Origin: Fluviirhizobium alvei
GTDB lineage: Bacteria > Pseudomonadota > Alphaproteobacteria > Rhizobiales > Rhizobiaceae
Length of the DNA: 64,000 nt
Direction: 5' to 3'
NCBI RefSeq assembly: GCF_030551875.1
Contig: NZ_JAUOZU010000019.1
Span: 1-64,000 of the forward strand
Made by a program: the position numbers and the translations under genes
The notes under the pieces: generated by a model
What the model saw: only the letters and a program-made list of their open reading frames with translations
What the model was told of the DNA's origin: nothing
Database searches by the model: none
Shown: positions 1 to 15,480 of the stretch, in pieces
How the letters are laid out: each line of letters opens with the position of its first letter
How positions within the stretch are numbered: the stretch's first letter is position 1

Positions 1-85
1 AACCCTTGTCCGCCAGAAAACCCGATATCGCAGCGACAATGCCGCGGGTGGACACGCAGGTGACAGTCAGAACATAGGTCAGCAT
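1..85 (-). CDS. purU: Formyltetrahydrofolate deformylase, N-terminal part (runs off the window)
   Basis: Only the first 28 codons are present. They read MLTYVLTVTCVSTRGIVAAI, followed by SGFLADKG, which matches the conserved N-terminal ACT domain of PurU (the family pattern is YVLTVxCxSTRGIVAAISGxL). PurU hydrolyses 10-formyl-THF to formate and THF. The ATG at 85 is preceded by a purine-rich AAGAGATG stretch. An ATG three bases further upstream reaches a stop after three codons, which excludes it. The gene follows the PanB-like gene by about 80 bases on the same strand and is probably the distal part of the same operon, placing a folate C1 enzyme next to an oxygenase system. The rest of the gene, including the catalytic domain, lies outside the window. 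Confidence 0.85.
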   Translation of the reverse strand, partial: MLTYVLTVTCVSTRGIVAAISGFLADKG

Positions 86-167
86 TTCATCTCTTTCGCA
101 TAGAAAACCGCCGTCCGGCCCGTTGCGCCAGGCCAGACGCGCATCCTCGATGGGGCCTTGGAACCGC

Positions 168-965
168 TCAGGAATCGAGCGCCTTCAGGAAGTTTTCGAG
201 CTCCGTCGGGTCCATATGGACGACATGGCGGTCCTCGGGATAGGCGAGGCTTTCGACATCCTGACGATATTCCGTAAAGGCGGCAATCCGCTCCTGCTGC
301 AGCCGGTCATATTCGGCAGCGAAATTGCGATAGACTTTGGAATGGCGGGGCATATGGCCACGGTTCTGGCCGAGAATATCCTCGGCGAACAGATATTGCG
401 CATCGCAACCGGTGCCGGCGCCCATCGAGAGCATGAAGAGCGAGGTCCGCTCGGAGATCGCCTTGGCCACCTCGACGGGAACAACCTCGATTTCGGCACC
501 GAAGGCGCCCGCCGCTTCATATTTGCGCACAGCATCCATGATATCGAGCGCCGATTGCGCGGTCTTGCCGACCGCCTTGAAGCCACCCGTCCAGGTCGCC
601 CGCGACGGGATCAGCCCGACATGGCCGATCACCGGGATCGCCTCATCCGCCATCGCCTTCACCGTCGCATAGCTTGCCGAGCAATAGACGGCATCGGCGC
701 CGGCCTTGTAGAGCCGGAAGGCCCAGCGCACGAAATCGTCTGCGGTGCCGATCTCGAAGAAATTGTCGCCGGGCATTGAAAAGAGCGTCGGCGCCGCATC
801 GCGATATTCAGGATTGAGCATCAGATCCGGCGGGATCGAGACGATATCGATGCCGGCGCGTTCGGCCGCCTCGGCCTCTTCGAGTGTCATGACGCGCAGC
901 ATGGTCAGCTGGCGTTTGCCCTTCATCGCGCGGAGGTCGGCAATGGTCGGTCTCTTTCTGGACAT
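168..965 (-). CDS. PanB-like (ketopantoate hydroxymethyltransferase family) protein, divergent active site
   Basis: 265 residues, the usual PanB length (about 264-275), with the TIM-barrel pattern of the family. It has a GHVGLIPSR segment near residue 112 (family GHxGLTPQ), EIEVVPVEVA near 158 (family ECVPxELA), a GAGTGCDAQ segment and a C-terminal GHMPRHSKVY. The canonical metal-binding VGDSL and ADLPF motifs and the VKIEGG motif are absent: the matching places read SIPPDLM, FSMPGD and VYCSAS. It is therefore a family member whose substrate or reaction probably differs from ketopantoate synthesis. A GGAAGGGG ribosome site precedes the ATG. It lies 18 bases after the ferredoxin reductase gene and upstream of purU. 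Since PanB uses methylene-THF, handling of C1 units released by the neighbouring oxygenase is possible, but this is inference. Confidence 0.8.
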   Translation of the reverse strand: MSRKRPTIADLRAMKGKRQLTMLRVMTLEEAEAAERAGIDIVSIPPDLMLNPEYRDAAPTLFSMPGDNFFEIGTADDFVRWAFRLYKAGADAVYCSASYATVKAMADEAIPVIGHVGLIPSRATWTGGFKAVGKTAQSALDIMDAVRKYEAAGAFGAEIEVVPVEVAKAISERTSLFMLSMGAGTGCDAQYLFAEDILGQNRGHMPRHSKVYRNFAAEYDRLQQERIAAFTEYRQDVESLAYPEDRHVVHMDPTELENFLKALDS

Positions 966-983
966 GCGTTTCCCCTTCCAGGA

Positions 984-2213
984 TCAGAGTAGCGATTTGA
1001 GTTTGTTGGACGGATCGGCAAGGAATGCCGGGTCCGGTCGGGCACCGCGGCCAATCAGCATCTCGGCGAGCCTTATATCTCTGGCCACCGCCTGGCCCGG
1101 CCCGAAACCTTGCGCTGCCACCAGCCGTCCGTCGGCGGCGAGATGAAAGCTCATCAGCACATCCTCGCCGGGCCGGCGTGAGATTTCGGTTACCCCTTCA
1201 TCGATGAGCCCCGCCACCTGCAGCCCATGGTCATACTGGTCCGACCAGAACCAGGGCACCGGCATTTCGCTGATCGCTTCGCCGGAGATGAGGGCCGCAG
1301 CCATGGCCGCCTGGTCGCGCGCACTACGCCAGGATTCGAGCCGGACCCGCCGGCCGCCATAGATCGAAAGCGGAAAGGAAGAGCAATCGCCGATCGCCAG
1401 GATGGCCGGATCGGAAGTTTCAAGCCGCGCATCGACGATGATGCCATTGTCGACCATCAGACCGGCCTCGCGCGCCAGCGCCACCTCAGGCACGGCACCA
1501 ATGCCGATCACCACCGTGGCAGCCGTAATCGTTCCGCCATCCGAAAAGATGAGCGCAATCGCATCGCCACTGCGGTCGATGGCGCTGACGCCCGTCCCGA
1601 GGCGAAAGACGACGCCGTTCCGCTCATGCAGTTGCTGGACTTGGTCCGCAATCGATGCCGAGACGCCGCGGGCGAGAATTCGCGCCTGCGGCTCGATGAC
1701 AGTTACATCTGCCCCATGCTTGCGCGCGGCTGCCGCCACTTCGAGCCCGATGAAGCCGGCCCCGAGAATGGCGATCGGGCCACCGGCCACCAGAAGCGGC
1801 CGCAAGGCCTGCGCCTCGCGAAGCGTTCTGAGATAGCGAATGCCGGCAATCCCCTCGGCGATCGGCAGGCGTCGCGACGCGGCGCCGGTGGCCAGCACCA
1901 GCCTTCCATAGTCCAGCCGCTGCCCGTCGGACAGTTCGACCCTCCGCGCCGCCCGGTCGATCCTGAGCGCCTGGACGCCGCGATGATGAATGATCGTGTC
2001 CGGCATCTCTCCACCGGCAAAGAGCGGAACCGCTCGGGCTGCTTCGCCCGGCTCGAGATGGGCCTTCGACAGTGGCGGCCGCTCATAGGGCGCGCAATCC
2101 TCCGCCCCGACGAGATGGATCGGCGCGGAATGGCCGCGCCGCGCAAGCTCTGCCGCGAGGGTGGCACCCGCCTCGCCGGCGCCGATGATGACGATGGGTC
2201 CGTCGCTTTTCAT
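984..2213 (-). CDS. mocF: FAD-dependent ferredoxin reductase (MocF-like)
   Basis: About 409 residues. The N-terminus has the FAD-binding GxGxxG (IVIIGAGEAGATLAAEL). A second Rossmann motif for NAD(P)H follows (IAILGAGFIGLEVAAA, near residue 145), then the late FAD motif ILAIGDCSSF. This is the architecture of the putidaredoxin/rubredoxin reductase class, which passes electrons from NAD(P)H to a small ferredoxin. A longer ORF starts at 2252, but those extra codons only read through the end of the Rieske gene, so the ATG at 2213, 10 bases after the Rieske stop, is preferred. Its ribosome site is weak, and translational coupling is likely. With the upstream Rieske protein and desaturase-like oxygenase it forms a set in the same order as mocDEF of rhizopine catabolism. 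The substrate here is not proven. Confidence 0.85.
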   Translation of the reverse strand: MKSDGPIVIIGAGEAGATLAAELARRGHSAPIHLVGAEDCAPYERPPLSKAHLEPGEAARAVPLFAGGEMPDTIIHHRGVQALRIDRAARRVELSDGQRLDYGRLVLATGAASRRLPIAEGIAGIRYLRTLREAQALRPLLVAGGPIAILGAGFIGLEVAAAARKHGADVTVIEPQARILARGVSASIADQVQQLHERNGVVFRLGTGVSAIDRSGDAIALIFSDGGTITAATVVIGIGAVPEVALAREAGLMVDNGIIVDARLETSDPAILAIGDCSSFPLSIYGGRRVRLESWRSARDQAAMAAALISGEAISEMPVPWFWSDQYDHGLQVAGLIDEGVTEISRRPGEDVLMSFHLAADGRLVAAQGFGPGQAVARDIRLAEMLIGRGARPDPAFLADPSNKLKSLL

Positions 2214-2223
2214 GACCGGACCG

Positions 2224-2538
2224 TCAGCCGAGCCGGAAGAGGATGTCGCCATCCTCGACCTTGGCCTCGTAGGTCTTGAGATCGACGCAGATCGGCGCCT
2301 TCAGCCCCTTGCCGTTGCGATAGTCGAAGCGGCCATTGTGCTTCGGGCATTCGATGACATGGCCCATCACCAGCCCATCGGCGAGATGGACCCTCTCATG
2401 GGTGCAGAGCCCGTCCGTCACATAGACCGTGTCGTCGGGGGCGCGGATGATCGCAAATGTCTGGCCATCATGGTCAAACCGCATCACATCCTCGGCGTCG
2501 ATATCGTCCAGCGCGCAGGCCCTGATCCAGTCGCTCAT
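2224..2538 (-). CDS. mocE: Rieske [2Fe-2S] ferredoxin (MocE-like)
   Basis: 104 residues when started at the ATG at 2538, where a GGAG site lies seven bases upstream. An ATG at 2544 is too close to that site, and the longer ORF to 2604 has no support. The cluster-binding residues are visible as CTHERVHL and CPKHNGRFD, that is C-x-H and C-x2-H, the full Rieske ligand set. The size and simple fold match the stand-alone ferredoxins that feed Rieske or di-iron oxygenases. It is placed between the desaturase-like oxygenase and the reductase and should shuttle electrons between them in the cytoplasm. MocE of the rhizopine pathway is the closest named relative I recognise; MocE-like ferredoxins also serve other oxygenases. 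Confidence 0.88.
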   Translation of the reverse strand: MSDWIRACALDDIDAEDVMRFDHDGQTFAIIRAPDDTVYVTDGLCTHERVHLADGLVMGHVIECPKHNGRFDYRNGKGLKAPICVDLKTYEAKVEDGDILFRLG

Positions 2539-2617
2539 AGTCATTCTCCGGTTTTTGGACATGGGTTGGCTTTCGCCCGTGCGGGCGGTCATGCCTTCCC
2601 TCACTTTCAGTGTCGGT

Positions 2618-3697
2618 TCAGTGCACGAGGTTCGGCTGCAGATCCTCGCGATAGGGCCGTGCCGTCGGCGGCAGCTCCCGTTTCACGAAATAGTCCTCGT
2701 AGCGCAATTGGCGCAGCCAGGCCGGGATCACCTCGCGATAGGCATGGATGATCGACGGGTTCGGCACCGGCAGGTCATGCTTGATCAGGCGATGCAGCTC
2801 AGGCAGCGCGTGGTAGGGCACCATCGGGAACATATGATGTTCGACATGGTAGTTCATGTTCCAGTAGATGAAGCGGCTGATCGGATTCATATAGACGGTA
2901 CGGCTATTGAGCCGATGATCGAGCACGTTCTCGGCCAGGCCGCCATGCTGCAGAAGCCCGGTCATGATCATGTGCCAGCAGCCATACATGCGCGGCAGGC
3001 CGATCAGCATCAGCGGCAGCCAGGATTGCAGATAAAGGGCGGCGGCAATGGTGGCGATATAGATCAGCACATGCACGCGCGCTGCCCGGACACCCTTCTG
3101 AATCTCGCTTTCCGGAATATAGTCACGTTCGTCGGCGGAGTAGCGGCCGAGCGCATTGCGAACGAGCCCGATCAGCGAATGATAGACGTCGAGAATGCCG
3201 AACACATTCAGCACCACCTTCAAAAGATCCGGCGGACGCATGACGGCGATTTCCGCGTCACGGCCGACGATGATCGTATCGGTATGGTGCCGCGCATGGC
3301 TCCAGCGCCAGTTCACCGGGTTGCGCATCAGCATGAAGGAGGCGATCTGGTAGACGACGTCGTTCATCCAGCTGGTGCGGAAGGCGGTGCCATGGCCGCA
3401 TTCATGCCAGCGCGCATCGCTCGCCGACCCGTAAAGCACGCCATAGACGAAGAAGAACGGAATGCACCACCAGCTGCCCCAGAAATAGACGCCGCCGGCG
3501 CCGGCCACAACCAGAAGCCCGAGCCAGATCACCGTGTCCCGGATCGCTGCGGCATCGGAGCGCTGCATCAGCGCCTTCATCGTCTTGCGGTCGACATCCG
3601 AATGATACCATTCCGCCGAGGCCAGGCCGAGCGCGACGGCGCGCGCAGCACCTTCGCCGGTCAGCGAATAATCCCGCTTGTCTACCCTGTCCAACAT
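2618..3697 (-). CDS. mocD: Membrane fatty-acid-desaturase-type oxygenase (MocD-like)
   Basis: 359 residues from the ATG at 3697, which has a GGGAGGT ribosome site. The longer reading frame to 4006 overlaps the upstream gene and is rejected. Three histidine clusters typical of membrane di-iron desaturases and hydroxylases are present: WHECGH, SHARHH and YHVEHH. Hydrophobic segments lie around VIWLGLLVVAGAGG and VLIYIATIAAALYL. Such enzymes use O2 and electrons from ferredoxin to hydroxylate or desaturate. The MocD relative acts with MocE and MocF in the removal of the methyl group from 3-O-methyl-scyllo-inosamine. The gene order D-E-F is the same here. The substrate may be another methoxy- or N-methyl compound. 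Confidence 0.82.
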   Translation of the reverse strand: MLDRVDKRDYSLTGEGAARAVALGLASAEWYHSDVDRKTMKALMQRSDAAAIRDTVIWLGLLVVAGAGGVYFWGSWWCIPFFFVYGVLYGSASDARWHECGHGTAFRTSWMNDVVYQIASFMLMRNPVNWRWSHARHHTDTIIVGRDAEIAVMRPPDLLKVVLNVFGILDVYHSLIGLVRNALGRYSADERDYIPESEIQKGVRAARVHVLIYIATIAAALYLQSWLPLMLIGLPRMYGCWHMIMTGLLQHGGLAENVLDHRLNSRTVYMNPISRFIYWNMNYHVEHHMFPMVPYHALPELHRLIKHDLPVPNPSIIHAYREVIPAWLRQLRYEDYFVKRELPPTARPYREDLQPNLVH

Positions 3698-3723
3698 GTC
3701 GTTGACCTCCCTGCCCCTGCCGT

Positions 3724-4920
3724 TCAGCCGGCGGGTTCCTGCTTCTTTCTCGTGATGTTGGGAAACTGGCCGGATGGTTTCGGAAAACCGTCCGCCGGCT
3801 GTGTTGCGATCGCCGCAATCCGGTCGAGCGATGCGGCAATGGCGGACGCTCCAGCCAGCACCCGGAATGTGACGTCGTAGCGGCGCTCCTCGCCATGATG
3901 GAGCCAGATCAGTTCGCCCGTCTCGCGCGCCCGGCCCCGGCCCATCACATGGTCGGTCGAGGGTTCGATACCGAGCGCATAAAGTCCCGATTGCAGGGCC
4001 TGCCATTCGAAAAGGCAGGGAAACTGGTCCTTGCGGAAGCAGACTTCGAGGCCGAGGCCGGCGCGGTCGTTGACCAGCGCCACCGGCACCTGTCCGGCCG
4101 CATCAGCCACGACGTCATGTTCCCAGACCTGTTCGTGAAACCGCTCCTGCGGCGCCGGCATCCGGTCATAGCCGACATTCTGGGCACGATAGTTTTCGCC
4201 CTCATGGGCGGCCCACAGGACATCGCGGATCGGCGCGGCATAGCGCGATCCTTCCGCCAGCACCGGATGGCCAACATTGACGTGATACATGTACATGTGC
4301 GGTGTCGGGCTGAAGCCGCGATTGGCGACCCGGTCGGTGATGCGGATCTCGTCGGTCCCCACCTTCGCCTCGATGCGGCGGATGAGTTCGAGATGTTCGC
4401 CGAACACGGCAGCCTGCCGCACGATCCCTTCGCACCAGAGCCAGCAATCATCGCCGTCCCAGCGTTCGCCATAGCCGGACAGGCGGGCGGGAATGGTGCC
4501 GACGCGGCCATGGATCGAATGTTTGACCGTCTGGCGCGGCCGGTAATTATAGTGATCGGCCGGTTCCTCGGCCATGAAGAGCGTATGATCGAGGCCGCAG
4601 GTGACCAGCAGTCCGGAGAAGGACCGCATCCAGCCCAGGCCGCCCTCCCCTTCATAATCATGCAGGCCGGGATGGCGAAATCCGGTCGGGGAATGCCAGC
4701 CGATCGCCATGCCGTTATGTTCGCAATCGCCGATATCCATCGCGCGGTCTATGAGGACGGTGAAGCGGAGCCCGGTACCGGTGCGGAATTCGAGCATGCG
4801 CACGCCTCGCTCGACCCCGTCGCCCAGCGTCATCAGGCGCACACCGGCGAACTGCGACAGGCTGCCCGCATAGGCGGAAAGTTCCCGTCTGGTCCTGCGC
4901 TCGCCATAAAGTGTCACCAT
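3724..4920 (-). CDS. DUF4432 / aldose 1-epimerase-like protein
   Basis: 398 residues with the beta-rich fold pattern of galactose mutarotase relatives. Recognisable segments are the early LIDRAMDIGDCEHNG, SGLLVTCGLDH, and HMYMYHVNVGHPVL in the middle, followed by a late EWQALQSGLYALGIEPST. These are typical of the DUF4432 group found in sugar and cyclitol catabolic operons, whose exact reaction is mostly unknown but probably acts on the anomeric carbon or ring form of a sugar. A GGAG site precedes the ATG. It lies between the MocC-like isomerase and the MocD-like oxygenase in the same operon, which suggests that the substrate or an intermediate has a sugar ring. Confidence 0.75.
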   Translation of the reverse strand: MVTLYGERRTRRELSAYAGSLSQFAGVRLMTLGDGVERGVRMLEFRTGTGLRFTVLIDRAMDIGDCEHNGMAIGWHSPTGFRHPGLHDYEGEGGLGWMRSFSGLLVTCGLDHTLFMAEEPADHYNYRPRQTVKHSIHGRVGTIPARLSGYGERWDGDDCWLWCEGIVRQAAVFGEHLELIRRIEAKVGTDEIRITDRVANRGFSPTPHMYMYHVNVGHPVLAEGSRYAAPIRDVLWAAHEGENYRAQNVGYDRMPAPQERFHEQVWEHDVVADAAGQVPVALVNDRAGLGLEVCFRKDQFPCLFEWQALQSGLYALGIEPSTDHVMGRGRARETGELIWLHHGEERRYDVTFRVLAGASAIAASLDRIAAIATQPADGFPKPSGQFPNITRKKQEPAG

Positions 4921-5003
4921 CGCCGCTGCTCCGTTGCTGAAACGTCATCTGTCCGGCACCGGGCGGCTATCCCGCCCGATGCCATTTCCTTGAGAACCGA
5001 AGC

Positions 5004-5918
5004 TTAGAGACCCTGGGCCCGCAGCTTGCCGTCGAGGAAGGCCTTGGCGCGCGGCACGTCGGATTCTTCCAGATGCTCGATGATGATCGGAATGTTCGGA
5101 TGCTTCTGCGCCAGCCGCTTGAGGTAGAGATCGTAGTTGAGCGAACCGAGGCCCGGGGCCGGCAGCTCGATCTCGCCGACGCCGCGGAACGTATGGCTTT
5201 CCATCGCATCGGCATCGCCGATATCGGCATGCTTCTCGGACTTGTCATCGCCCGAGCGCTTGACGTCCTTGGCATGGGCGATCTTGATCTTGTCGGTCAG
5301 CGTGTCGAAGACCTGGTTGAGGATCTGATCCATCCTGTCGATATTGTGGGTCTCGAAATAGTTGGTCGGATCCATCAGCAGGCCAAGGCCCTGGTGATCG
5401 ACCTGGGCGAACATCTTCACCGTTTCCTCGACGGAACCGACGACATTGTTCACATAGGTTTCGAGCAGGAAGGTGGCACCATGGTCATAGGCATGCTGCG
5501 ACAGGTCGGCGATGACCTTGCGGCATTCCTCGAAGCCCTCCTCGGTCTTGTTCTTCGGATGGTGAACCCAGTCGGACTCGGTGTTGTAGGTGCCGGTTTC
5601 GGAAATCACATAGGGCGTGCCGAGATATTGCGCATGCCGGATGATTTCCTTGAGATAGCCGACGCGGCGGGCGCGTTCTGCCGGATCGGGATGGATGATG
5701 TTGGTATAGCCGGAGATACAGCAGATCGGCAGATTGTGATCGCGGAACGTCTCGCGGATGCGGATGCACTTCTCCTTGGTGATCTGGCCTGCGCTCAGAT
5801 CCATATCCTTGAAATGCAGGTCGAGCTGCACGGTGTTGAAGTTGAGCGCACGGATCTTCCTTGCGGTCTCTTCAAGGCTGTAGGGGAAATATCCGGTGAA
5901 AATGCCGGTCTGCATCAT
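5004..5918 (-). CDS. Sugar isomerase/epimerase, TIM barrel (MocC/IolE-like)
   Basis: 304 residues of the xylose-isomerase-like TIM-barrel family. The metal-binding acids and histidine expected in this family are visible in order: ISETGT (Glu), LLETYVNN (Glu), LLMDPTNYF (Asp), IAHAKDVK (His) and IIIEHLEE (Glu). This set binds a divalent cation and supports isomerisation or dehydration of keto-sugars and inososes. Two ATG codons stand together at the start, with a GGGAGGA ribosome site. It follows the Gfo/Idh/MocA dehydrogenase directly, so a natural order is oxidation of a hydroxyl group, then isomerisation or dehydration. MocC of rhizopine catabolism belongs to the same family, but orthology cannot be proved by eye. 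Confidence 0.82.
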   Translation of the reverse strand: MMQTGIFTGYFPYSLEETARKIRALNFNTVQLDLHFKDMDLSAGQITKEKCIRIRETFRDHNLPICCISGYTNIIHPDPAERARRVGYLKEIIRHAQYLGTPYVISETGTYNTESDWVHHPKNKTEEGFEECRKVIADLSQHAYDHGATFLLETYVNNVVGSVEETVKMFAQVDHQGLGLLMDPTNYFETHNIDRMDQILNQVFDTLTDKIKIAHAKDVKRSGDDKSEKHADIGDADAMESHTFRGVGEIELPAPGLGSLNYDLYLKRLAQKHPNIPIIIEHLEESDVPRAKAFLDGKLRAQGL

Positions 5919-5944
5919 GGTTGAGTCCTCCCTTTGGATCGAAA

Positions 5945-7033
5945 TCAGATAGCGATATCAGCGAGTTTCACGGCGCGCCCTTCGGCCATCGAACGATAGC
6001 CGGCCTCCACGAGCGCCATGGTCTTGACATTGTCGGCAACCGAAAGTGCCGGGGCCTCGCCGGAGCGAAGCGCATATTGCAGCTGTTCCATCACGCCGAT
6101 GAAGGCATGCGGGAACCACATCGTGTCCCATTTGGGCGAGACCCATTTGCCGCCGGTGGTCTTTTTCGACGCATAGCTGAGCGTCGAGGGCGACCCATCC
6201 GGCCAGCCGATCGTGCCCTGTGCGACGCCATCGGTGCCTTCGACGCGCCACTTGATGTAGATGTCGCTGTCGAACCCTTCCTCGCGCGGACCCGACCAGA
6301 CATCCTCGAGCGACACCGCAAGCACATTGTTGGGGAATTTCAGTGTCGAGACGGTCACGCCGTCGCTATGGTCGAACCGGGTGCGCGGATCGGTGCGGGC
6401 TGCGGTATAGATTTCGTCGGGATCGCCAAACAGGAAGCGCAGCACATCGAGATGATGCACACTCATATTGGCGAGCGTCAGCCGGTCGTAATCCTCGAGA
6501 AAACCCTGCCAGTGCGGAATTGCGCGCATCTCGATCGTGGCGATCACCACCGAGCCGAGTTCGCCCCGGTCGAGGATCTCCTTGAGAACCCGCATCGACT
6601 GGTCGTAGCGCATGTTCTGGTTGACCGAGATGATCTTGCCGGCGGCCTTTGCCTCGTCGCGCAGCTTCTTCGCTTCTTCGAGCGACAGTGCCAGCGGCTT
6701 CTGGGCGAGGATCGCCTTGATGTGCGGCGTGGCAAGCGCCTTGCGGATGAGGTCCGGCTGCTGGTCCGGCGGATAGGCAATGTCGATGATCTCGATCGAA
6801 GGATCGGCAATCAGCGCCTCCGGCGTCTCATGTACGGTCGGTATATCCCAGCGCTTGGCCACCTCGGCGGCCCGCGACTTCGTGCGCGAGGCGATCGCGC
6901 CAACGGTGAAACCGGCCATCTTGTAGGCGGCAAGATGGCATTCCGCCATGATCATGCCGGCGCCGATACAGCCGATGCGATAACCCTTTTCCCGAACATC
7001 GACATCCGGATGAAATGGCTCAGCCTTCGTCAT
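5945..7033 (-). CDS. Gfo/Idh/MocA family NAD(P)-dependent dehydrogenase
   Basis: 362 residues from the ATG at 7033, which has a GGGGAGGAG site; the longer frame to 7138 lies inside the preceding ATPase gene. The N-terminal Rossmann fold carries GCIGAGMIMAECHL, and the conserved AQKPLALS (family EKP) contains the active-site lysine. In the second domain the HHLDVLRFLFGDP segment carries the catalytic histidine. These enzymes oxidise secondary hydroxyls of sugars and inositols. The place in the operon, between the transporter genes and the MocC-like isomerase, fits the first oxidation after uptake. MocA of rhizopine catabolism gave this family part of its name, but many paralogues exist and the substrate is unknown. 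Confidence 0.88.
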   Translation of the reverse strand: MTKAEPFHPDVDVREKGYRIGCIGAGMIMAECHLAAYKMAGFTVGAIASRTKSRAAEVAKRWDIPTVHETPEALIADPSIEIIDIAYPPDQQPDLIRKALATPHIKAILAQKPLALSLEEAKKLRDEAKAAGKIISVNQNMRYDQSMRVLKEILDRGELGSVVIATIEMRAIPHWQGFLEDYDRLTLANMSVHHLDVLRFLFGDPDEIYTAARTDPRTRFDHSDGVTVSTLKFPNNVLAVSLEDVWSGPREEGFDSDIYIKWRVEGTDGVAQGTIGWPDGSPSTLSYASKKTTGGKWVSPKWDTMWFPHAFIGVMEQLQYALRSGEAPALSVADNVKTMALVEAGYRSMAEGRAVKLADIAI

Positions 7034-7046
7034 ATTCTCCTCCCCT

Positions 7047-8111
7047 TCACAGATTTTGCAGTTTCGGCAGGGCCCTCCCGGCCCTGTCGAAATAGAACAT
7101 GCGCGCCGGATCGCACGCGAGACCCACGAGACTGTCAAGCCGGATCTGCGGCTGGCCGCGCATCAGGGCCCGGAGCCGGATCGAACCGCTTTCGAGCGTG
7201 ATGACCGTATGGCCACCAAGCGGCTCGACCTCGAAGACGCGCGCCTGATTTGCCGCGCCGCTCTCGGCTCCGACCTTGAGGTCTTCCGGCCGGATGCCGA
7301 TGCCGACCGCACCGTCCGGAATCCGCGCCGGATCGAGCTGCAAGGCGCCGGCGGCAGCCGTTACTGTCGGTCCGGCCTCGATCGTCAGCATGTTGATCTG
7401 CGGTGAGCCGAGAAGCCCTGCGACATAGCGGTTGGCCGGATTGTCGTAGATTGCCTGCGGCGTATCGATCTGACGGATGGCGCCATGTTCGAGCATCGCC
7501 ATCCGGTCGGCGACCGACATCGCTTCTTCCTGGTCATGCGTCACATAGACCAGCGTATGGCCGAGCTCGCGCTGGATGCGCTTGAGTTCGACGCGGGTTT
7601 CCTCGCGGAGCCGCGCATCGAGCGCCGAGATCGGATCATCCATCAGATAAGCGACCGGATCGCGCACAAGAGCCCGCGCGATCGCCACACGCTGGCGCTC
7701 GCCGCCGGAGAGATGGGCCGGAAGCTTGTGCAACAGATGCGAGATATGCAGCTTTTCGGCGACGCTTGCGACGCGTCTGGCAATCGCATCGGGCGCCACC
7801 TTCCGCTCGACCAGCGGAAAGCGCACATTGTCGCCGGCCGTCATATGCGGAAACAGCGCCAGGTTCTGGAACACCATCGCGACATTGCGCGCCGGCGCCG
7901 GAACATGGGTCACGGGCCTGCCATCGATGAGGATTTCGCCCCTGTCCGGCGTTTCGAGCCCGAGGATCAGTTTCAGGATCGTCGATTTGCCAGAGAGCGG
8001 CGGCCCGAACAGACAGAAGAATTCATTGTCGCCGATCTCGAAGCTGACATCGTCGACGGCGATCTTGTCGCCATAGCGTTTGGTGACATTGTCGAAACGG
8101 ATGGTCGCCAT
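7047..8111 (-). CDS. ABC transporter ATP-binding subunit with altered catalytic site (first of a pair)
   Basis: 354 residues, MalK/UgpC type with a C-terminal regulatory (TOBE) region. The start at 8111 is preceded by GGAGG inside the four-base gap after the partner gene. The Walker A loop is GPPLSGKST, the Q loop is VFQNLALF and the signature is LSGGERQRVAIARAL, which is intact. In Walker B the usual DEP is DDP (YLMDDPISALD), so the catalytic glutamate is an aspartate. The next gene encodes a second ATPase with an intact Walker B and a degenerate signature, so the two should form a heterodimer with one good and one weak ATP site. The same arrangement of two ATPases, two permeases and a large Tat-type binding protein is known from the rhizobial glycerol transporter GlpSTPQV. 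The substrate here is unknown. Confidence 0.88.
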   Translation of the reverse strand: MATIRFDNVTKRYGDKIAVDDVSFEIGDNEFFCLFGPPLSGKSTILKLILGLETPDRGEILIDGRPVTHVPAPARNVAMVFQNLALFPHMTAGDNVRFPLVERKVAPDAIARRVASVAEKLHISHLLHKLPAHLSGGERQRVAIARALVRDPVAYLMDDPISALDARLREETRVELKRIQRELGHTLVYVTHDQEEAMSVADRMAMLEHGAIRQIDTPQAIYDNPANRYVAGLLGSPQINMLTIEAGPTVTAAAGALQLDPARIPDGAVGIGIRPEDLKVGAESGAANQARVFEVEPLGGHTVITLESGSIRLRALMRGQPQIRLDSLVGLACDPARMFYFDRAGRALPKLQNL

Positions 8112-8115
8112 GGTC

Positions 8116-9210
8116 TCAAGCCTCCCCGATCGCCATGCCGGTCTCGGCATCGAACAGTCGCACACCTTCGCTGGCAAGCGCCACCGGCGCCATCTTGCCG
8201 GCCTCGATCCCCTCGCCATTGTCGATCACCGCCTTGGCCAGCGTGCGTTCGGCGCCGAAATGCAGCGTCGTGCGCGCGCCGATCCGCTCGACGAACAGCA
8301 CCGGCAGCGAAATGCCACTACCCGTCCGGTCGATCGATACCTGTTCGGGCCGGAAACCGAACCACACATCGCCCCGCTTGCGGCGGCGGAGTGCGGCGGC
8401 GAGCCCTTGTGGCAACGCCGGAGACAGACCGAGCTGGCCGAGATCAACACGGATCTCGTCACTCTCCTCGGTCACCGAACCGCGGATGAGGTTCATGCCC
8501 GGCGCCCCGATGAAATTGGCAACGAAAAGGTTGGCGGGATGGTTATAGACCTCGAGCGGTGTTCCCACCTGCTGCAGCACCCCGTGATCCATCACCGCAA
8601 TCCGGTCAGCCATCGTCATCGCCTCAAGCTGGTCATGGGTGACATAGACCATGGTCTGGCGGAACTGCCGCTGCAGATGCTTGAGTTCGGTGCGCATGAC
8701 GGCGCGGAAGGCCGCGTCGACATTGGAGAGCGGCTCGTCGAGCAGGAAGATCGCCGGTTCGACGATTGCCGAGCGGCCGATCGCCAGCCTTTGCAGGATA
8801 TTGACCGACAGTTTCGCCGAGGGCTTGTCGAGCAGTTCGGTGAGCTGCAGGAACTCCGCCATCTGCTTGACGCGACGGTTGATGTCGGCAGCCGGCAACC
8901 GGCGCATCTTCAGGCCGAAGGCGAGGTTGTCGCGCACGGTCATATGGGTGAAGATCGCATAGTTCTGGAAGACGAAACCGACACCGCGCCTGCCCATCGG
9001 CACGTCGATCATGTCGCGACCGTCAAAGAGAATGCGGCCACCGGTCGGCCGTTCCATGCCGGCGATCATGTTCATCGTCGTCGACTTGCCGCAACCCGAG
9101 GGTCCGAGCAGCGCCATGAACTCGCCGTCGGCGATCTTCAGGTCCATGGTCTTCAGGGCCTGGAAGGCACCGAAACTCTTTTCGAGATTTTCGAGATGGA
9201 TCGACGTCAT
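8116..9210 (-). CDS. ABC transporter ATP-binding subunit with degenerate signature (second of a pair)
   Basis: 364 residues from the ATG at 9210, which has GGAGG upstream and stands one base after the permease stop; a GTG at 9225 is less likely. Walker A (GPSGCGKST), the Q loop (VFQNYAIF) and Walker B (FLLDEPLSNVD) are normal. The ABC signature, normally LSGGQ, reads LSVNILQRLAIGRSAI and so lacks both glycines. The D loop and H loop (YVTHDQ) are present. Paired with the preceding ATPase, this protein supplies the intact Walker A/B while the partner supplies the intact signature. This makes one competent composite ATP site and one degenerate one. Confidence 0.88.
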   Translation of the reverse strand: MTSIHLENLEKSFGAFQALKTMDLKIADGEFMALLGPSGCGKSTTMNMIAGMERPTGGRILFDGRDMIDVPMGRRGVGFVFQNYAIFTHMTVRDNLAFGLKMRRLPAADINRRVKQMAEFLQLTELLDKPSAKLSVNILQRLAIGRSAIVEPAIFLLDEPLSNVDAAFRAVMRTELKHLQRQFRQTMVYVTHDQLEAMTMADRIAVMDHGVLQQVGTPLEVYNHPANLFVANFIGAPGMNLIRGSVTEESDEIRVDLGQLGLSPALPQGLAAALRRRKRGDVWFGFRPEQVSIDRTGSGISLPVLFVERIGARTTLHFGAERTLAKAVIDNGEGIEAGKMAPVALASEGVRLFDAETGMAIGEA

Positions 9211-9211
9211 G

Positions 9212-10195
9212 TCAGGCCTCCGCACGCGCCTTGTTCATCCGGGAAATCGCCAGGGAAACAAGGATGGAGAGAACGATGAGGATGACGAGCGCGATCGCTG
9301 CGACATAGCCCCAGATGAGATCCTGCTGGGTGACCTTGTAGATATAGACGGAGATCGTCTCGGTCGCGACACCCGGCCCGCCGCCGGTCATGATGAAGAG
9401 CGTATCGAAGATTTTGAAATTTTCGATGACGCGGATGGCGAGCGCAATCAGGATGATCGTCTTCATGCGTGGCAGCATGATGTGAAGAAAGCGTTGCGGC
9501 CAGGAAGCGCCGAGCAGGCTTGCCGCTTTCAGCTGGTCCTCCGGCACGCCGACGAGGCCGGCGAGCAGGATGAGGAACATCAGCGGCGTCCATTGCCAGA
9601 TATCGGCGATCATCACCGCAATCAGCGCCGTTCCCGGGCTCGAGAGCCAGGCCAATGCCACCGGCTGGCCGGTCAGCGCCGAAATCAGCATGTTCACCGG
9701 CCCGCCCGACTGGAAGAGCATGAAGAACATGTAGCCGGCGACCGCAGGCACCACCATCATCGGCATCAGGAGGATCGAATAGAACACCCGCTTGCCCGGA
9801 AAATCCTGCACGAAGAGGATCGCGAGACCGAGACCGAGCAGGAACTCGACCGGCACGCAAACCAGCATGATCAGCGCCGTGCGACCGAGCGCGCCGAAGA
9901 AGCGGTTGTCCGTCATCAGGTCGATATAGTTGGCGAAGGTGTTCCAGCTTTCCCAGGCCATCCACCAGCCGGTACCATCGAGCGGCGACCAGTCGGTGAG
10001 CGAGATATAAAGCTGCATCAGAAGCGGAAAGACCGAGATGAAGAGCACCAGGATCTGGGCCGGAAGCGTCAGCCACAGTCCAAGGCGGCGGCCTTCGTCG
10101 GCATCCGTCGCCGCGTTGGCGGATAGGGATACGGGTTGCTCGAGAGCCGGCATGACGCTCTGTCCTCCCTGTTCAAGACGATCGACGAGGCTCAT
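9212..10195 (-). CDS. Sugar ABC transporter permease (MalF-type)
   Basis: 327 residues starting at the ATG at 10195, which overlaps the stop of the upstream permease by four bases (ATGA). About six hydrophobic segments are seen, beginning at [20 protein letters not shown]. The cytoplasmic EAA-type loop that docks on the ATPase lies around [20 protein letters not shown]. The N-terminal tail of about 40 residues is polar. The same reading frame continues open upstream to 11029, but that part is a shadow of the other permease gene. Together with the next permease it should form the membrane channel for the binding protein encoded at the head of the operon. Confidence 0.88.
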
Positions 10196-11058
10196 TGCTT
10201 CAGCGCCCCGAATGTCAGCCCCCGCACCAGATGGCGCTGGATGGCGATGCCCATGATGACGGGCGGCACGGCGGCGATGAGACCGAGCGCGGCCTTGGCA
10301 CCATAGAGCTGTCCCGTCATCGACGAGGAGAGCGAGGCCATATAGACCGGGATCGTCACCCATTCGCGGGTGGTCAGTAGCAGACCGATCAGATAGTCCG
10401 ACCAGTTGAGAATGAAGACGAAAAGGGCGGAGCTTGCGAGCGGGGCGCGCATCATCGGCAGCGTGATCTTGGTGAAGACGCGCCAGCGCGAACAGCCTTC
10501 CACCCGCGCCGCATCCTCGATTTCGCGCGGCATGTCGTCGAAGAAGGTCTTCATCAGCCAGAAGGCGAAGGGCAGCGTGACAATGCCATAGATCAGCGCC
10601 AGGCCCCACCATGTATCGACCATGTTGAAGAAGGCCCACATGATCATGACCGGGATCATGACGGCCATCGGCGGAAACAGCCGGAGCTGGATCAGCGCCA
10701 GCGGCAGATTGCCGCCAGATCCGAAGCGCGACAGGCCATAGGCGGCCGATGTGCCGAACACCATGGCAATCAGCGTGCCGAACACCGCCGAAAGCAGCGA
10801 GGCGAGAATGGGCTTGGCCGCCGTCTTGTCGAGCGCGACGATCAGTTCGTTCGAGGATTCCCCGAAGATGAAGCGGAAATTGTCGAGCGTCGGCTGTCTG
10901 GGCCACCAGGTCAGCTGATCGCCCGTCGCCGTCCATTCGGCGATCGGCTTGAAAGCCATCGAGGCCATCCAGAGAATGGGGACGAGCGTAATGGCCAACG
11001 CCGCGAAGATGGCGAGATAGCGAAGACACTCAAGGGCAAACGAACGATGCATGGTCAT
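10192..11058 (-). CDS. Sugar ABC transporter permease (MalG-type)
   Basis: 288 residues with six predicted membrane segments, starting with [20 protein letters not shown]. The EAA loop is well kept ([23 protein letters not shown]). This is the classical position and spacing for a MalG/UgpE-type permease. The start is an ATG at 11058 or 11052; a TTG at 11061 is less likely. The ribosome site is weak. A strong hairpin separates the gene from the binding protein gene upstream, which may lower its expression relative to the binding protein. It overlaps the next permease by four bases. Confidence 0.87.
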
Positions 11059-11078
11059 CAACTGTCATTGTTGGAGAT

Positions 11079-11102
11079 CGGAGGGGCGAAAACGCCCCTC
11101 CG
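11079..11102 (-). terminator. Hairpin between binding protein and permease genes
   Basis: A perfect 10-bp stem (CGGAGGGGCG / CGCCCCTCCG) with an AAAA loop lies between the binding protein stop and the first permease. No T run follows on the minus strand, so it more likely stabilises the 3' end of the binding protein mRNA or partly attenuates transcription than ends it. Confidence 0.7.
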
Positions 11103-11130
11103 TGCCTTGGGAGAGAAACCGTTCGATCGA

Positions 11131-12735
11131 TCAATCGACCACGGTCGGCCAGGCAGCCATGTTCGCCTTGACGGCACTGACGAGTTTGTCCTCGCCGATG
11201 CGCCGGGCGATGCGCTTCCATTCCTTTTCGGTGTCGGCCATCGCCTGTTCCGGTGTCTTGGCCTTGGTCAGCGATGCGACGAGATTTTCGTCGAGCGCAT
11301 TGTGGAAGGCGGTCGCACCCGGATAGTTGATGGTCGGCACGGCGCGCGCCACGCTCTCGCGGACGATATCCATGTGGTAGTCGTGGTAGGTCTGGCGCAC
11401 GAGCGGATCGGAGAAGTTCGACAGCTGGAACGGATCGAAGTAGCCGCCCGGATTGGCCGTCATCCACGAATAGATCCGGCTCGAACCCAGCCATTGCAGC
11501 AGAAGATAACAGGCTTCCGGATGCTTGGACTGCGACGAGATCGAAGCCGACAGGTTAAGCCAGAGCACGGTGCGGCGGATCAGCTTGCCATCGACCTCGC
11601 GGCCCGGCGGCAGCATGGACCCGACCTTGCCGGTGACCTTCGAGCCGGTATTGCCGGCATTGTCGAGGAATTTCGGCAGGTTGGAGAAGGCGCAGGTCAT
11701 GGCCGCGCCGGCATTGGCGAAATTGCCATACTGTTCCGGCCAGCCCCAGGAAATCGCATCCGGCGAATGGTGCGACAGCGATTCCACATATTCGAGCGTG
11801 GCGGCATAGCCGGCCTCGGAATTGATCAGCGGATTGCCGCTTTCATCGAACAGGAACTGGTTCGGATTGCCCATCGAAACATAGCGCTGATACCAGTTGG
11901 TATAGCCCCAGCCCTGGTTGCGCAGGTCGGTCGAGCCGAACAGGCCCTTGTCCGGACGGTGGAAGAAGGCCGCAATCTCGGAATGTTCCTTCCAGGTCCG
12001 CGGCGGCTTCAACTCATAGCCATGCTTGTCGGCAAAAGCCTTCTTCTCGGCCTCGTCGTTGAAGAGATCGGTGCGGTAGTTCCAGGTCTGGAAGTCACCG
12101 TCGAGCGACACGCCATAGGTCGAACCATTATACTGGTTGAGCAGCGAAACGCCCTGCTTGCCGTTGACGTAGCCGCGTTCCGGATCGTCCCATTCCGGCT
12201 TGTGGGCCGCAACGAAATCGTCGAGATTGAGAATGCCACCGGTTTCGGCAAGATCGCCCAGACGGTTCCATTCCACGGCATAGATGTCGAAGGCCCCACC
12301 CTTGGTGGAGATATCCTGCATCGTCTTGGTGAATTCCTGGCCGTTCGGAACGCCGACGATTTCGAGCTTGATGCCGGTTTCCTTTTCCCACAGATCCTTG
12401 ATCGAGGGCGCGCCCTTCGGGAAAGGCTGCGTCAATTGCCCGATCGAACCGTCGGACAGGCCGAGAACGATCCGCTCCGGTGCCTTGCCGGCCGCCTTCA
12501 GCGCCTTGGCCGCTTCCACCGCCCGGCCTTCGGGCGTCTCGGCGCCATACTGGTAACGTTCGGCGCCGTCAAATCCGGTCGGCCCGCCAATCATGCCCGG
12601 CGCCAGTGCGTCCGCGGCAAAGGCCCGACCCGGCCGGATGAATTGCGGTGCAATGCCGATGGCGGCCGTCAGCACGGCTGCCTTACCGCCACTGGCCAAC
12701 AGGCCACGACGGGTCATTTCAAGTCTTGAGACCAT
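11131..12735 (-). CDS. ABC transporter periplasmic solute-binding protein with Tat-type signal
   Basis: 534 residues from the ATG at 12735 with a GGGAGGAT ribosome site. The N-terminus (TRRGLLASGGKAAVLTAAIG, ending near GRAFA) is a twin-arginine type signal followed by a cleavage-like AxA. The body is a family 1 sugar-binding protein and unusually long (about 400-430 is common). The length, the Tat signal and the gene set of two ATPases and two permeases recall GlpV of the rhizobial glycerol transporter. Tryptophan- and tyrosine-rich segments such as NQGWGYTNWYQRYVSMG may line the sugar site. It is the first gene of the 12.7-kb operon and faces a divergent LacI gene, which is the likely regulator. 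Confidence 0.87.
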   Translation of the reverse strand: MVSRLEMTRRGLLASGGKAAVLTAAIGIAPQFIRPGRAFAADALAPGMIGGPTGFDGAERYQYGAETPEGRAVEAAKALKAAGKAPERIVLGLSDGSIGQLTQPFPKGAPSIKDLWEKETGIKLEIVGVPNGQEFTKTMQDISTKGGAFDIYAVEWNRLGDLAETGGILNLDDFVAAHKPEWDDPERGYVNGKQGVSLLNQYNGSTYGVSLDGDFQTWNYRTDLFNDEAEKKAFADKHGYELKPPRTWKEHSEIAAFFHRPDKGLFGSTDLRNQGWGYTNWYQRYVSMGNPNQFLFDESGNPLINSEAGYAATLEYVESLSHHSPDAISWGWPEQYGNFANAGAAMTCAFSNLPKFLDNAGNTGSKVTGKVGSMLPPGREVDGKLIRRTVLWLNLSASISSQSKHPEACYLLLQWLGSSRIYSWMTANPGGYFDPFQLSNFSDPLVRQTYHDYHMDIVRESVARAVPTINYPGATAFHNALDENLVASLTKAKTPEQAMADTEKEWKRIARRIGEDKLVSAVKANMAAWPTVVD

Positions 12736-13020
12736 CTTATCCTCCCACCGGGCAGACCTCCTTCCGCCCAATGATGAGGAAAATGACGACCAACTTGATG
12801 ACTGTCAACATCATTTTTCATCATTTTGATCATGCATCGCATCATTTGATTGCATTCATGCGCGGCTTTTTGCATCAATTCATTGATAAATAAGTGCTTT
12901 ATTCATTCTTTTGAAACGCATGATTTCCAAAATTCCTGCCTGAAACCAAAATATTAGGGCATTAAATGATTTGAAGATTGCATTTATCGTCAGTTCAATT
13001 ACATCATTTCACATCAGAAC
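12736..13020. promoter_or_regulatory. Divergent promoter/operator region between the Moc-like operon and its LacI gene
   Basis: A 285-base AT-rich stretch in a GC-rich window, placed between divergent genes. It holds several related words. These are ATCATTTGAT, a perfect short palindrome, at about 12841-12850, followed by TGCATTCATG; ATGATTTGAA at 12966-12975, followed by GATTGCA; and repeated CATCATTT words at about 12807-12822 and 13003-13012. The word ATGATTTGAA also occurs just upstream of the second LacI gene (33416-33425). These are candidate LacI-family operators for both the operon and the regulator. I cannot fix the -35 and -10 boxes with confidence. Confidence 0.6.
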
Positions 13021-14043
13021 ATGAAGGCAAATGCCGTGAGATCGACATTGATTGACATTGCAAGGGAATCCGGTGTCTCGACCGCCACGGTCGACCGGGT
13101 TCTCAACAACCGTCCTGGTGTGAAGGAGCGAACGCGCCTCATCGTCATGGAGGTTGCGACACGGCTTGGCTATTTCACCGCGCCAACCGTTCAGGATAGT
13201 CGTCTCCGCATCGATTTCGTTCTGCCCGAAGGCACCAACGCCTTCATCCTGAACCTCAAATCCGAACTTGAACGCCAGGTCTCCGCGATGACGGATCTTG
13301 ATGCGCGGGTTCATACGGTCGAAGGGTTTAACCCGGATGTGCTCGCCGCCAAACTCGCCGAGCTCGAAGACAATTCCCAAGGCGTGGGGCTGCTCGCATT
13401 TGATCATCCGGCCGTACGCGAAGCGATGCGACGTCTTGCCGATCGCGGCGTCAAGATCGTCACCATGGTATCCGATATCCAGCATACGCCGCGGATCGGC
13501 TATGTCGGGGTCGACAATCGCGCTGCCGGTCGTCTTGCCGGCTATCTCATCGGCCGCTTCCTGCCGAAGGACCAGCCGCAGAAGATCGCCCTTTTTGCCG
13601 GCTCGCTTGCCTATCGCGGCCATGAAGAGCGCGAAATGGGTTTCCGCCACATCCTGTCGGAAGAGTTTCCCTATCTCGAGATCGTCGATCTGCGCGAAAT
13701 CCGCGATGACCGCATTCGCGCCTATGCCGAATCCACCACGCTTCTGAGCCGGCATCCCGATCTTGCCGGTATCTACAATATCGGCGGCGGCAATTCCGGT
13801 ATCGGCAAGGCGCTCGAGGAATGCGGCCGTGGTCGCGAGGTCGTATTCGTCGGTCATGAAGTGACCGAAGACACGAGGCTGATGCTGATCAAGGGCACGA
13901 TGGATGCGTTGATTGACCAGAATCCGCGCGTCGAAGCCCGCGAAACCATTTCCATGCTCAAGGCCGCCATCCGTGGCGAACCGATCAGCTATATCGGCCC
14001 GCGCATCCAGGTAGTGCTGAAGGAGAATATTCCGGATCATTGA
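13021..14043 (+). CDS. LacI-family transcriptional regulator
   Basis: 340 residues. The N-terminal helix-turn-helix reads STLIDIARESGVSTATVDRVLNNR, which is the LacI pattern with the hinge helix after it. A periplasmic-binding-protein-like sensor domain follows, with VGVDNRAAGRLAGYL and NIGGGNSGIGKALEE typical of regulators that bind sugars or cyclitols. It is divergent from the Moc-like operon and separated by an operator-like region, so it most likely represses that operon in the absence of the inducer. Its recognition helix (VSTATVDRVLN) is nearly the same as that of the second LacI protein in the window (VSVATVDRVLN), and a similar operator word stands before both genes. Confidence 0.9.
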   Translation: MKANAVRSTLIDIARESGVSTATVDRVLNNRPGVKERTRLIVMEVATRLGYFTAPTVQDSRLRIDFVLPEGTNAFILNLKSELERQVSAMTDLDARVHTVEGFNPDVLAAKLAELEDNSQGVGLLAFDHPAVREAMRRLADRGVKIVTMVSDIQHTPRIGYVGVDNRAAGRLAGYLIGRFLPKDQPQKIALFAGSLAYRGHEEREMGFRHILSEEFPYLEIVDLREIRDDRIRAYAESTTLLSRHPDLAGIYNIGGGNSGIGKALEECGRGREVVFVGHEVTEDTRLMLIKGTMDALIDQNPRVEARETISMLKAAIRGEPISYIGPRIQVVLKENIPDH

Positions 14044-15334: not shown

Positions 15335-15410
15335 CCCATCAAGGCAAAAGAAATTTGCTCACCGAAACGATGCCGAGACTCTTGACTGTGATTCCGGGAA
15401 ATGCGATTCT

Positions 15411-15470
15411 CTAGCTGCTAGACACGAGAAGGGCTTCCAGGACGGTAACGTTTGGGGGCCTTTTTCTTTT
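15411..15470 (+). ncRNA. Antisense ctRNA (incA type) between repB and repC
   Basis: On the plus strand, opposite to repABC, a promoter-like TTGACT (15382-15387) and GATTCT (15405-15410) stand 17 bases apart. About 20 bases later comes a hairpin, AAGGGCTTCCA (15429-15439) pairing with TGGGGGCCTT (15453-15462) with one bulge and two G-U pairs, followed at once by TTTTTCTTTT. This is a short RNA of about 55 bases with an intrinsic terminator, in the place where all repABC replicons have the small countertranscribed RNA that limits repC expression and sets incompatibility. The exact 5' end is inferred. Confidence 0.8.
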
Positions 15471-15480
15471 GCGGTTCACC

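Follow-up and report, generated by a model that had tools for sequence, protein, structure and literature searches.

The DNA analyzed here, which we call the window, comprises the initial 64 kb of the 102-kb contig C11 of Fluviirhizobium alvei, whose genome is 5.2 Mb in 46 contigs. At its left end, open reading frame (ORF) calls trace a minus-strand operon (Table 1). It begins at 12735 with an ATP-binding cassette (ABC) importer and continues through a MocA-like dehydrogenase, a MocC-like barrel, a DUF4432 protein, the oxygenase MocD, the ferredoxin MocE, the ferredoxin reductase MocF and a PanB-like protein that we name PanBL, to end in the start of purU. Gaps along the whole run are −4 to 83 bp. 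MocD, MocE and MocF have the parts of a MocDEF oxygenase complex: a desaturase-type oxygenase with three His boxes, a MocE-family ferredoxin and a ferredoxin reductase (FNR). The original prediction for this DNA named the genes from MocA to purU, and they are there, on the minus strand, in the order it gave and with small gaps (10–83 bp). The unit does not stop at 1–7033, however. Five importer genes (12735–7047; gaps of −4 to 78 bp, the last of them 13 bp before MocA) precede MocA, with a divergent LacI-type regulator gene beyond; the importer had been left out because the predicted unit began at 7033. We find that the constant partner is the gene for PanBL, which is not PanB, rather than purU, and in our reading the operon probably strips a small plant cyclitol or sugar of a methyl group.

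We used similarity to PanBL to choose 80 loci in named genomes, most of them Mesorhizobium (loci carry L numbers throughout); 75 of them hold at least 1.5 kb downstream of PanBL. In 78 of the 80, MocD lies upstream of PanBL, within 3.5 kb and on its strand; the stretches of the two misses, L117 and L119, begin 2.3 and 0.4 kb before PanBL. Other genes found within 10 kb were MocA (75 loci), the MocC-like barrel (74), MocE (73), DUF4432 (61), the importer binding protein (14) and MocF (12). Among 397 genomes of the order, searched for both proteins at E 1e-40, PanBL is present in 37 and MocD in 63; MocD occurs in 35 of the 37 PanBL genomes versus 28 of the 360 others (Fisher 2e-30, uncorrected for kinship). 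These genomes hold 59 copies of PanBL, 42 of them with MocD within 10 kb at a median gap of 436 bp. MocD is upstream and on the same strand in 40 of those 42; one of the 42, L188, has PanBL on the opposite strand.

We also read six rhizopine-type loci, from Rhizobium indicum, R. leguminosarum, R. lentis, Phyllobacterium and two strains of Sinorhizobium meliloti, which we call moc from their gene order and similarity (strain L5-30 was outside the comparison). All six have mocDEF, then PanBL, then purU, with PanBL in L240 and MocD in L238 each matched by tblastn in two pieces. The original prediction expected the PanBL gene and purU to stay with mocDEF in other genomes and named missing linkage as what would count against it. 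For the PanBL gene that objection falls away because the linkage to MocD is strong. It bites on purU, which adjoins PanBL in only five of the 80 loci (48–84 bp behind it in all five) and in the window is separated from it by a terminator-like hairpin. As the tightly linked one-carbon (C1) gene, purU is ruled out by that count of loci, and it cannot be called a firm operon partner. The constant partner is the PanBL gene, not purU.

MocD is not the only oxygenase found in this position; PanBL occurs with at least four oxygenase families. We inspected 16 of the 17 copies in the 397 genomes that have no MocD within 10 kb. In ten, the stretch holds a match to an FA_hydroxylase ("sterol desaturase") oxygenase, which is several kb off in L149 and L150 and on the opposite strand in L158, and one (L159) has a Rieske oxygenase beside PanBL. 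Wider searches at E 1e-35 found PanBL in 16 of 289 genomes class-wide and 15 of 299 phylum-wide, all in the same class. In 17 further class-wide stretches an oxygenase stands near PanBL in 11: MocD in L214, L216–L219, L221 and L230; PhyH in L220, L221, L223 and L228; and a weak Rieske-oxygenase match (25%) in L226. Relatives of PhyH, from bacteria to humans, have been shown to O-demethylate 2'-O-methyl nucleosides (PMC12709175).

A few of these neighborhoods are unusual in themselves. L220, from a small AT-rich genome, carries a tandem pair of PanBL genes (7232–8922) divergent from two PhyH dioxygenases. In two 1.4-Mb AT-rich genomes (L216 and L218) a divergent Rieske oxygenase adjoins MocD–PanBL (by Pfam in L218 and by marker match in L216), and a glutamine-synthetase-family gene adjoins PanBL in L218 (Pfam), with similar ORFs nearby in L216 (by eye). 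In L139 a partial xylose-isomerase-like barrel and PanBL occupy one 543-codon frame (8700–10331), either a fusion or an assembly effect.

PanBL has kept some key residues of PanB (ketopantoate hydroxymethyltransferase) and lost others. On the equivalog/subfamily models of panB the window protein scores 97.5 bits against a cut-off of 207.55 for one and 122.1 against 272 for the other, and six other PanBL proteins score 89–131 bits on the two models, all below the cut-offs. We aligned 75 PanBL rows with five PanB sequences; 47 of the rows were thinned from 128 so that none was >82% identical to another, and 28 were added unthinned, some near-identical and one gene entered twice (as L168 and L236), while the alignment omits L240, with its split match, and the second of the two L220 copies. 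In all 75 rows the columns of D88, E120 and K118 of the genome's own PanB never hold D, E or K; we take D88 and E120 to be metal ligands and K118 the active-site lysine. The D49 column, which is poorly aligned, holds D in six of the 75. The catalytic Glu (IEG) and His (GHxG) common to PanB are retained in all 75, and PanBL adds two invariants of its own, E158 and H208. The FastTree split of PanBL from the five PanB was made by rooting, and its support value was not used. The closest PanBL among the matches listed, from Rhizobium sp. RU36D, is 97% identical to that of the window, with a ratio of nonsynonymous to synonymous substitution rates (dN/dS) of 0.058, and therefore PanBL is under purifying selection.

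A structure model of PanBL (mean predicted local distance difference test score, pLDDT, 64; predicted template modeling score, pTM, 0.65) was made from an alignment holding only relatives 74–97% identical. Its best Foldseek matches are 3vav and 1m3u, which suggests the PanB fold family; the phosphoenolpyruvate (PEP) mutase/isocitrate lyase superfamily was also matched. Because the model is middling, we build no active-site argument on it.

Experiment has already touched on a probable member of this family. The panB paralogue RHE_PE00443 on plasmid p42e of Rhizobium etli CFN42 fails to complement a panB mutant (data not shown there) and, according to passages of the same paper, has five of 12 active-site residues and no detected metal site (PMC3082293). 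It is most likely the PanBL of the LacI–mocDEF cluster in L242 (33818–34633), because the plasmid is the same, the lengths are close (270 versus 271 aa), and each is 36% identical to panB (over 140 aa and 148 aa, respectively). That PanBL could be an ordinary second PanB making ketopantoate, as its PF02548 match and database name would have it, is a notion to which we give next to no credence: the scores fall far short of the panB cut-offs, the metal-site residues are gone, the genome has a separate true panB on contig C42, and the R. etli copy does not complement. In all, 247 plasmid records hold a relative at 60–80% identity, and the named rows among those listed are called PanB.

Table 1. 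Genes and sites of the operon and its regulator in the window
Feature	Position	Strand	Basis
LacI-type regulator, divergent from operon	13021..14043	+	ORF; LacI name by eye and match to annotated LacI genes
ABC importer, solute-binding protein	11131..12735	-	PF01547 in ORF 12771-11131; start chosen at 12735
ABC importer, permease 1	10192..11052	-	ORF; permease by eye and conservation
ABC importer, permease 2	9212..10195	-	ORF, conservation; permease by eye
ABC importer, ATPase 1	8116..9210	-	ORF; cross-matches ATPase 2 in L046
ABC importer, ATPase 2	7047..8111	-	PF00005, PF08402
Gfo/Idh/MocA-family dehydrogenase, no orthologue of rhizopine MocA	5945..7033	-	PF01408; 28% to moc-locus MocA-type proteins
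Xylose-isomerase-like TIM barrel ("MocC-type" in the original prediction)	5004..5918	-	PF01261
DUF4432, aldose-1-epimerase-like	3724..4920	-	PF14486; structure match 3ty1 at 3.4e-28
MocD-like membrane di-iron oxygenase	2618..3697	-	PF00487; His boxes HECGH, HARHH, HVEHH; 72% to moc-locus MocD
MocE Rieske ferredoxin	2224..2538	-	PF00355; TIGR02377 161.7 vs cut-off 136.15 bits
MocF ferredoxin reductase	984..2213	-	PF07992 (Pyr_redox_2), PF14759; 47% to moc-locus MocF
PanBL, without PanB metal site	168..965	-	PF02548; site analysis; dN/dS 0.058 vs RU36D
Terminator-like hairpin between PanBL and purU	112..139	-	Stem kept in RU36D without T run
purU start, 28 codons, cut by contig end	1..85	-	Full purU at same place in RU36D, L041 10879-11763

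Homologues of the LacI regulator are also divergent from related operons. An inverted-repeat LacI operator sought in 12736–13024 was not found there, and promoter-like and terminator-like sites over 1–13100 did not rise above shuffled sequence (4 versus 3.6 and 10 versus 8.7, respectively). Searches of solved structures returned nothing for MocD (E up to 1) or for the MocC-like barrel (E up to 1e-4). At 14078–17678, adjoining the LacI gene, are repABC-like replication genes (by eye), and the contig resembles a repABC plasmid; in RU36D similar genes flank the operon on its opposite side (L041 13072–16734). Further along, 18155–22525 encodes a large repetitive protein of 1456 aa that carries RTX-like repeats of glycine and aspartate close to its end (by eye).

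On its purU side the operon is cut by the end of the contig. The original prediction counted purU as part of the operon; its start is present, but just the first 28 codons, because base 1 is the end of C11. The end of contig C45 (G000:C45:361680-361756) repeats the 77 bp of window 1–77 in identical orientation, and a gene that looks by eye like glnT precedes it. As C11 and C45 both run into this common sequence, we infer that the genome has two purU starts. The body of purU is absent from the assembly, in which a TIGR00655 search gave no match over its cut-off. On C45 the shared end follows a glxBCD/glnT-like cluster (named by eye). R. etli p42e shows this other kind of purU context, with glnT-purU-folD adjoining dimethylamine and sarcosine genes.

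In RU36D a full purU lies 84 bp downstream of PanBL. The hairpin at 139–112 in the window has 11 pairs, the longest stem listed in the site scan of 1–13100; the PanBL–purU gaps of L237, L122 and L057 hold no comparable fold, and that of L236 (nine bases) is too short for one. Genes from two purU lineages, about 50% identical, immediately follow PanBL in different loci; in L122 and L237 folD comes next. The Phyllobacterium moc locus adds folD, R. indicum has folD-like pieces, and a LacI-type cluster of Mesorhizobium huakuii adds folD as well.

What, then, might this operon do? Starting from gene order, protein families, linkage and the loss of the PanB site, we infer a substrate, a demethylation by MocD and a reaction for PanBL. 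The operon would import and degrade a small O-methylated cyclitol or sugar. MocF would pass electrons via MocE to MocD, which would hydroxylate the methyl ether, and the hemiacetal so formed would collapse, leaving the free alcohol and, as a toxic by-product, formaldehyde. PanBL, a triosephosphate isomerase (TIM) barrel that derives from PanB but has no metal/ketoacid site left, would load the C1 unit onto tetrahydrofolate (THF), the carrier that the original prediction had in mind, either from free formaldehyde or directly from the hemiacetal. FolD (none was seen in the operon) and then PurU would convert the C1 unit to formate, and MocA, the TIM-barrel protein and DUF4432 would process the demethylated ring. 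The scheme as a whole is a tentative one, which we put forward and could well see fail. Parts of it stand on firmer ground: oxidative demethylation by the operon is likely, and so is a small cyclitol or sugar as substrate, given the importer, the Gfo/Idh dehydrogenase, the isomerase barrel and the mutarotase-like DUF4432. The broader idea, that PanBL is the formaldehyde-activating enzyme of a THF branch and belongs to a PanB-derived alphaproteobacterial family found with at least four unrelated oxygenase families, is possible, with doubt prevailing.

Much of the chemistry is familiar. MocDEF is known from rhizopine use, the reactions of FolD and PurU are known from published families, and oxygenation of an O-methyl group to a hemiacetal that releases formaldehyde is well established. 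The use of 3-O-methyl-scyllo-inosamine, a rhizopine, requires loss of its methyl group, and PanB itself handles methylene-THF. PanBL would suit the part of a formaldehyde-to-THF enzyme because the metal/ketoacid site is lost, the Glu and His are retained, and the protein travels with several oxygenase families and not with a single sugar pathway; purU of two lineages directly behind PanBL is consistent with such a role. The spontaneous reaction of formaldehyde with THF is described as far too slow in vivo for growth (PMC7073904), so an enzyme would be useful, and dedicated formaldehyde-capture enzymes exist for tetrahydromethanopterin (H4MPT) and glutathione (PMC8879981). Root exudate of Mimosa, in which pinitol was most concentrated, raised mocDEF expression in R. 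mesoamericanum 1.5–2.1-fold (PMC5789663).

Several observations weigh against this scheme. No folate-binding signature is known. Beyond the rarity of purU behind PanBL, no folD lies within 10 kb at any of the 80 loci, and among 330 ORFs around PanBL in 69 loci (a count from a rough ORF caller and marker matching only) there were two PurU and two FolD, compared with 21 ABC ATPases and 12 Gfo/Idh dehydrogenases. In the 397 genomes MocD has no PanBL within 10 kb at 39 of 81 places; 19 of these stretches were inspected and none holds PanBL, which is therefore not required for MocD function, and one of the 19 (L173) has MocD with purU. Six of the 59 PanBL copies show no oxygenase: none was found in the stretches around PanBL in L146, L153, L155 and L157, L143 sits at a contig edge, and G280:C17 was uninspected. 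Nor was one seen in six of the 17 class-wide stretches (L215, L222, L224, L225, L227 and L229), which are partly annotated. The shared frame of L139 could point to the sugar skeleton as the target of PanBL. Finally, deleting panB (with ltaE) left formaldehyde-dependent growth of Escherichia coli unchanged (PMC7073904), so ordinary PanB is not doing this job there.

These points lend weight to an alternative in which the methyl group is removed as proposed but PanBL acts on the carbon skeleton, as an aldolase-, lyase- or isomerase-like enzyme, and leaves the C1 unit alone. Importer and dehydrogenase genes are far commoner neighbors of PanBL than purU or folD, purU being merely optional; a TIM-barrel isomerase shares an ORF with PanBL in L139; and the PEP mutase/isocitrate lyase superfamily, matched by the PanBL model, includes C–C lyases. 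Set against this, the sugar enzymes and regulators vary from cluster to cluster (LacI–MocDEF, rhizopine, MocA/MocC and ribokinase types) and PanBL and an oxygenase stay constant, and both lineages of purU were placed directly behind PanBL. We think a skeleton role somewhat unlikely, but it stays a serious rival because purU and folD are rare, many MocD lack PanBL, and the E. coli deletion was silent. A more radical alternative makes MocD a ring hydroxylase or desaturase that removes no methyl group, with PanBL and purU incidental. MocD does belong to a desaturase/hydroxylase-like family (PF00487), it has no known substrate here, and there are MocDEF clusters without PanBL or purU. Yet the MocD–PanBL–purU cassette recurs in rhizopine-type loci, whose substrate bears an O-methyl group, and other genomes pair PanBL with Rieske oxygenases or with PhyH, a family that includes known demethylases. 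We regard this alternative as unlikely.

If PanBL does capture formaldehyde, as in the scheme we favor, it would fill a known gap. Pathway descriptions leave formaldehyde and THF to combine unaided, although the rate in vivo falls far short of what growth needs (PMC7073904, PMC8879981). Dedicated enzymes serve H4MPT and glutathione, and the passages covered describe none for THF; PanBL would be the THF counterpart of Fae. It would partly explain how methylated cyclitols can support these bacteria, many gene names would be corrected, and synthetic methylotrophy would gain a tool. Even if PanBL does not capture formaldehyde, it marks an unknown step beside mocDEF. A family that now bears the name of a vitamin-B5 enzyme is present in operons that probably demethylate, among them the rhizopine-type loci used in plant-signaling work.

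How does the operon compare with systems already described? From its genomic context, PanBL is proposed to act as do Fae, for H4MPT, and Gfa, for glutathione, by speeding the capture of formaldehyde by a carrier. Fae and Gfa belong to families different from that of PanBL. Its carrier would be THF, for which a review gives, in the passages concerned, the spontaneous reaction (PMC8879981). A flavin-oxidase demethylation operon offers another parallel, with catabolic demethylation and removal of the C1 unit via methylene-THF, FolD and PurU, as proposed for the window; there, however, the flavin oxidase forms methylene-THF, and passages describing that operon name no PanB-like protein. The review that covers this operon also cites a panB of Pseudomonas putida J5, of whichever kind, in nicotine use and puts this down to pantothenate synthesis. 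The LacI–mocDEF clusters beside FixV homologues (PMC3538637) have a divergent LacI-type regulator, mocDEF and then PanBL, as in the window; we find them in R. etli, R. leguminosarum, S. meliloti and M. huakuii. The window operon differs from them by the importer, MocA, TIM barrel and DUF4432 upstream.

A further comparison is with the rhizopine moc locus itself (mocC, mocBA, mocR and mocDEF). A search with a MocR-type regulator found 14 plasmid records at 80% identity or above. The mocA/mocB/mocR/mocDEF arrangement given in PMC10107442 is present in all six loci we read, with mocC/iolE within the stretch in five; the main text of that paper mentions neither pantoate, PanB, purU nor folate under any of six terms, and in the open-licence literature of PubMed Central, as far as its texts were covered, we found no description of the PanBL link. 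The mocDEF–PanBL–purU cassette common to both might suggest that the window holds the rhizopine (3-O-methyl-scyllo-inosamine) operon, which is very improbable. Compared with R. indicum, identity is 72% for MocD, 64% for PanBL, 61% for MocE and 47% for MocF, but 28% for MocA, and the MocC-like barrel has no match to moc-locus MocC/IolE at E 1e-3. The labels "MocA-type" and "MocC-type" of the original prediction thus hold at the level of superfamily and no closer. The window also has a LacI regulator, a different importer and DUF4432, and neither mocR nor mocB was seen by eye in its operon, so we reject it as a rhizopine operon. The pattern of identities argues for a different catabolic front end on the same terminal cassette. 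The original prediction knew of no described pathway with this gene set; the terminal cassette does match the moc locus, but its combination with the MocA/MocC-like/DUF4432 set is undescribed in the literature searched, and we regard the operon as a moc-type pathway in a new form.

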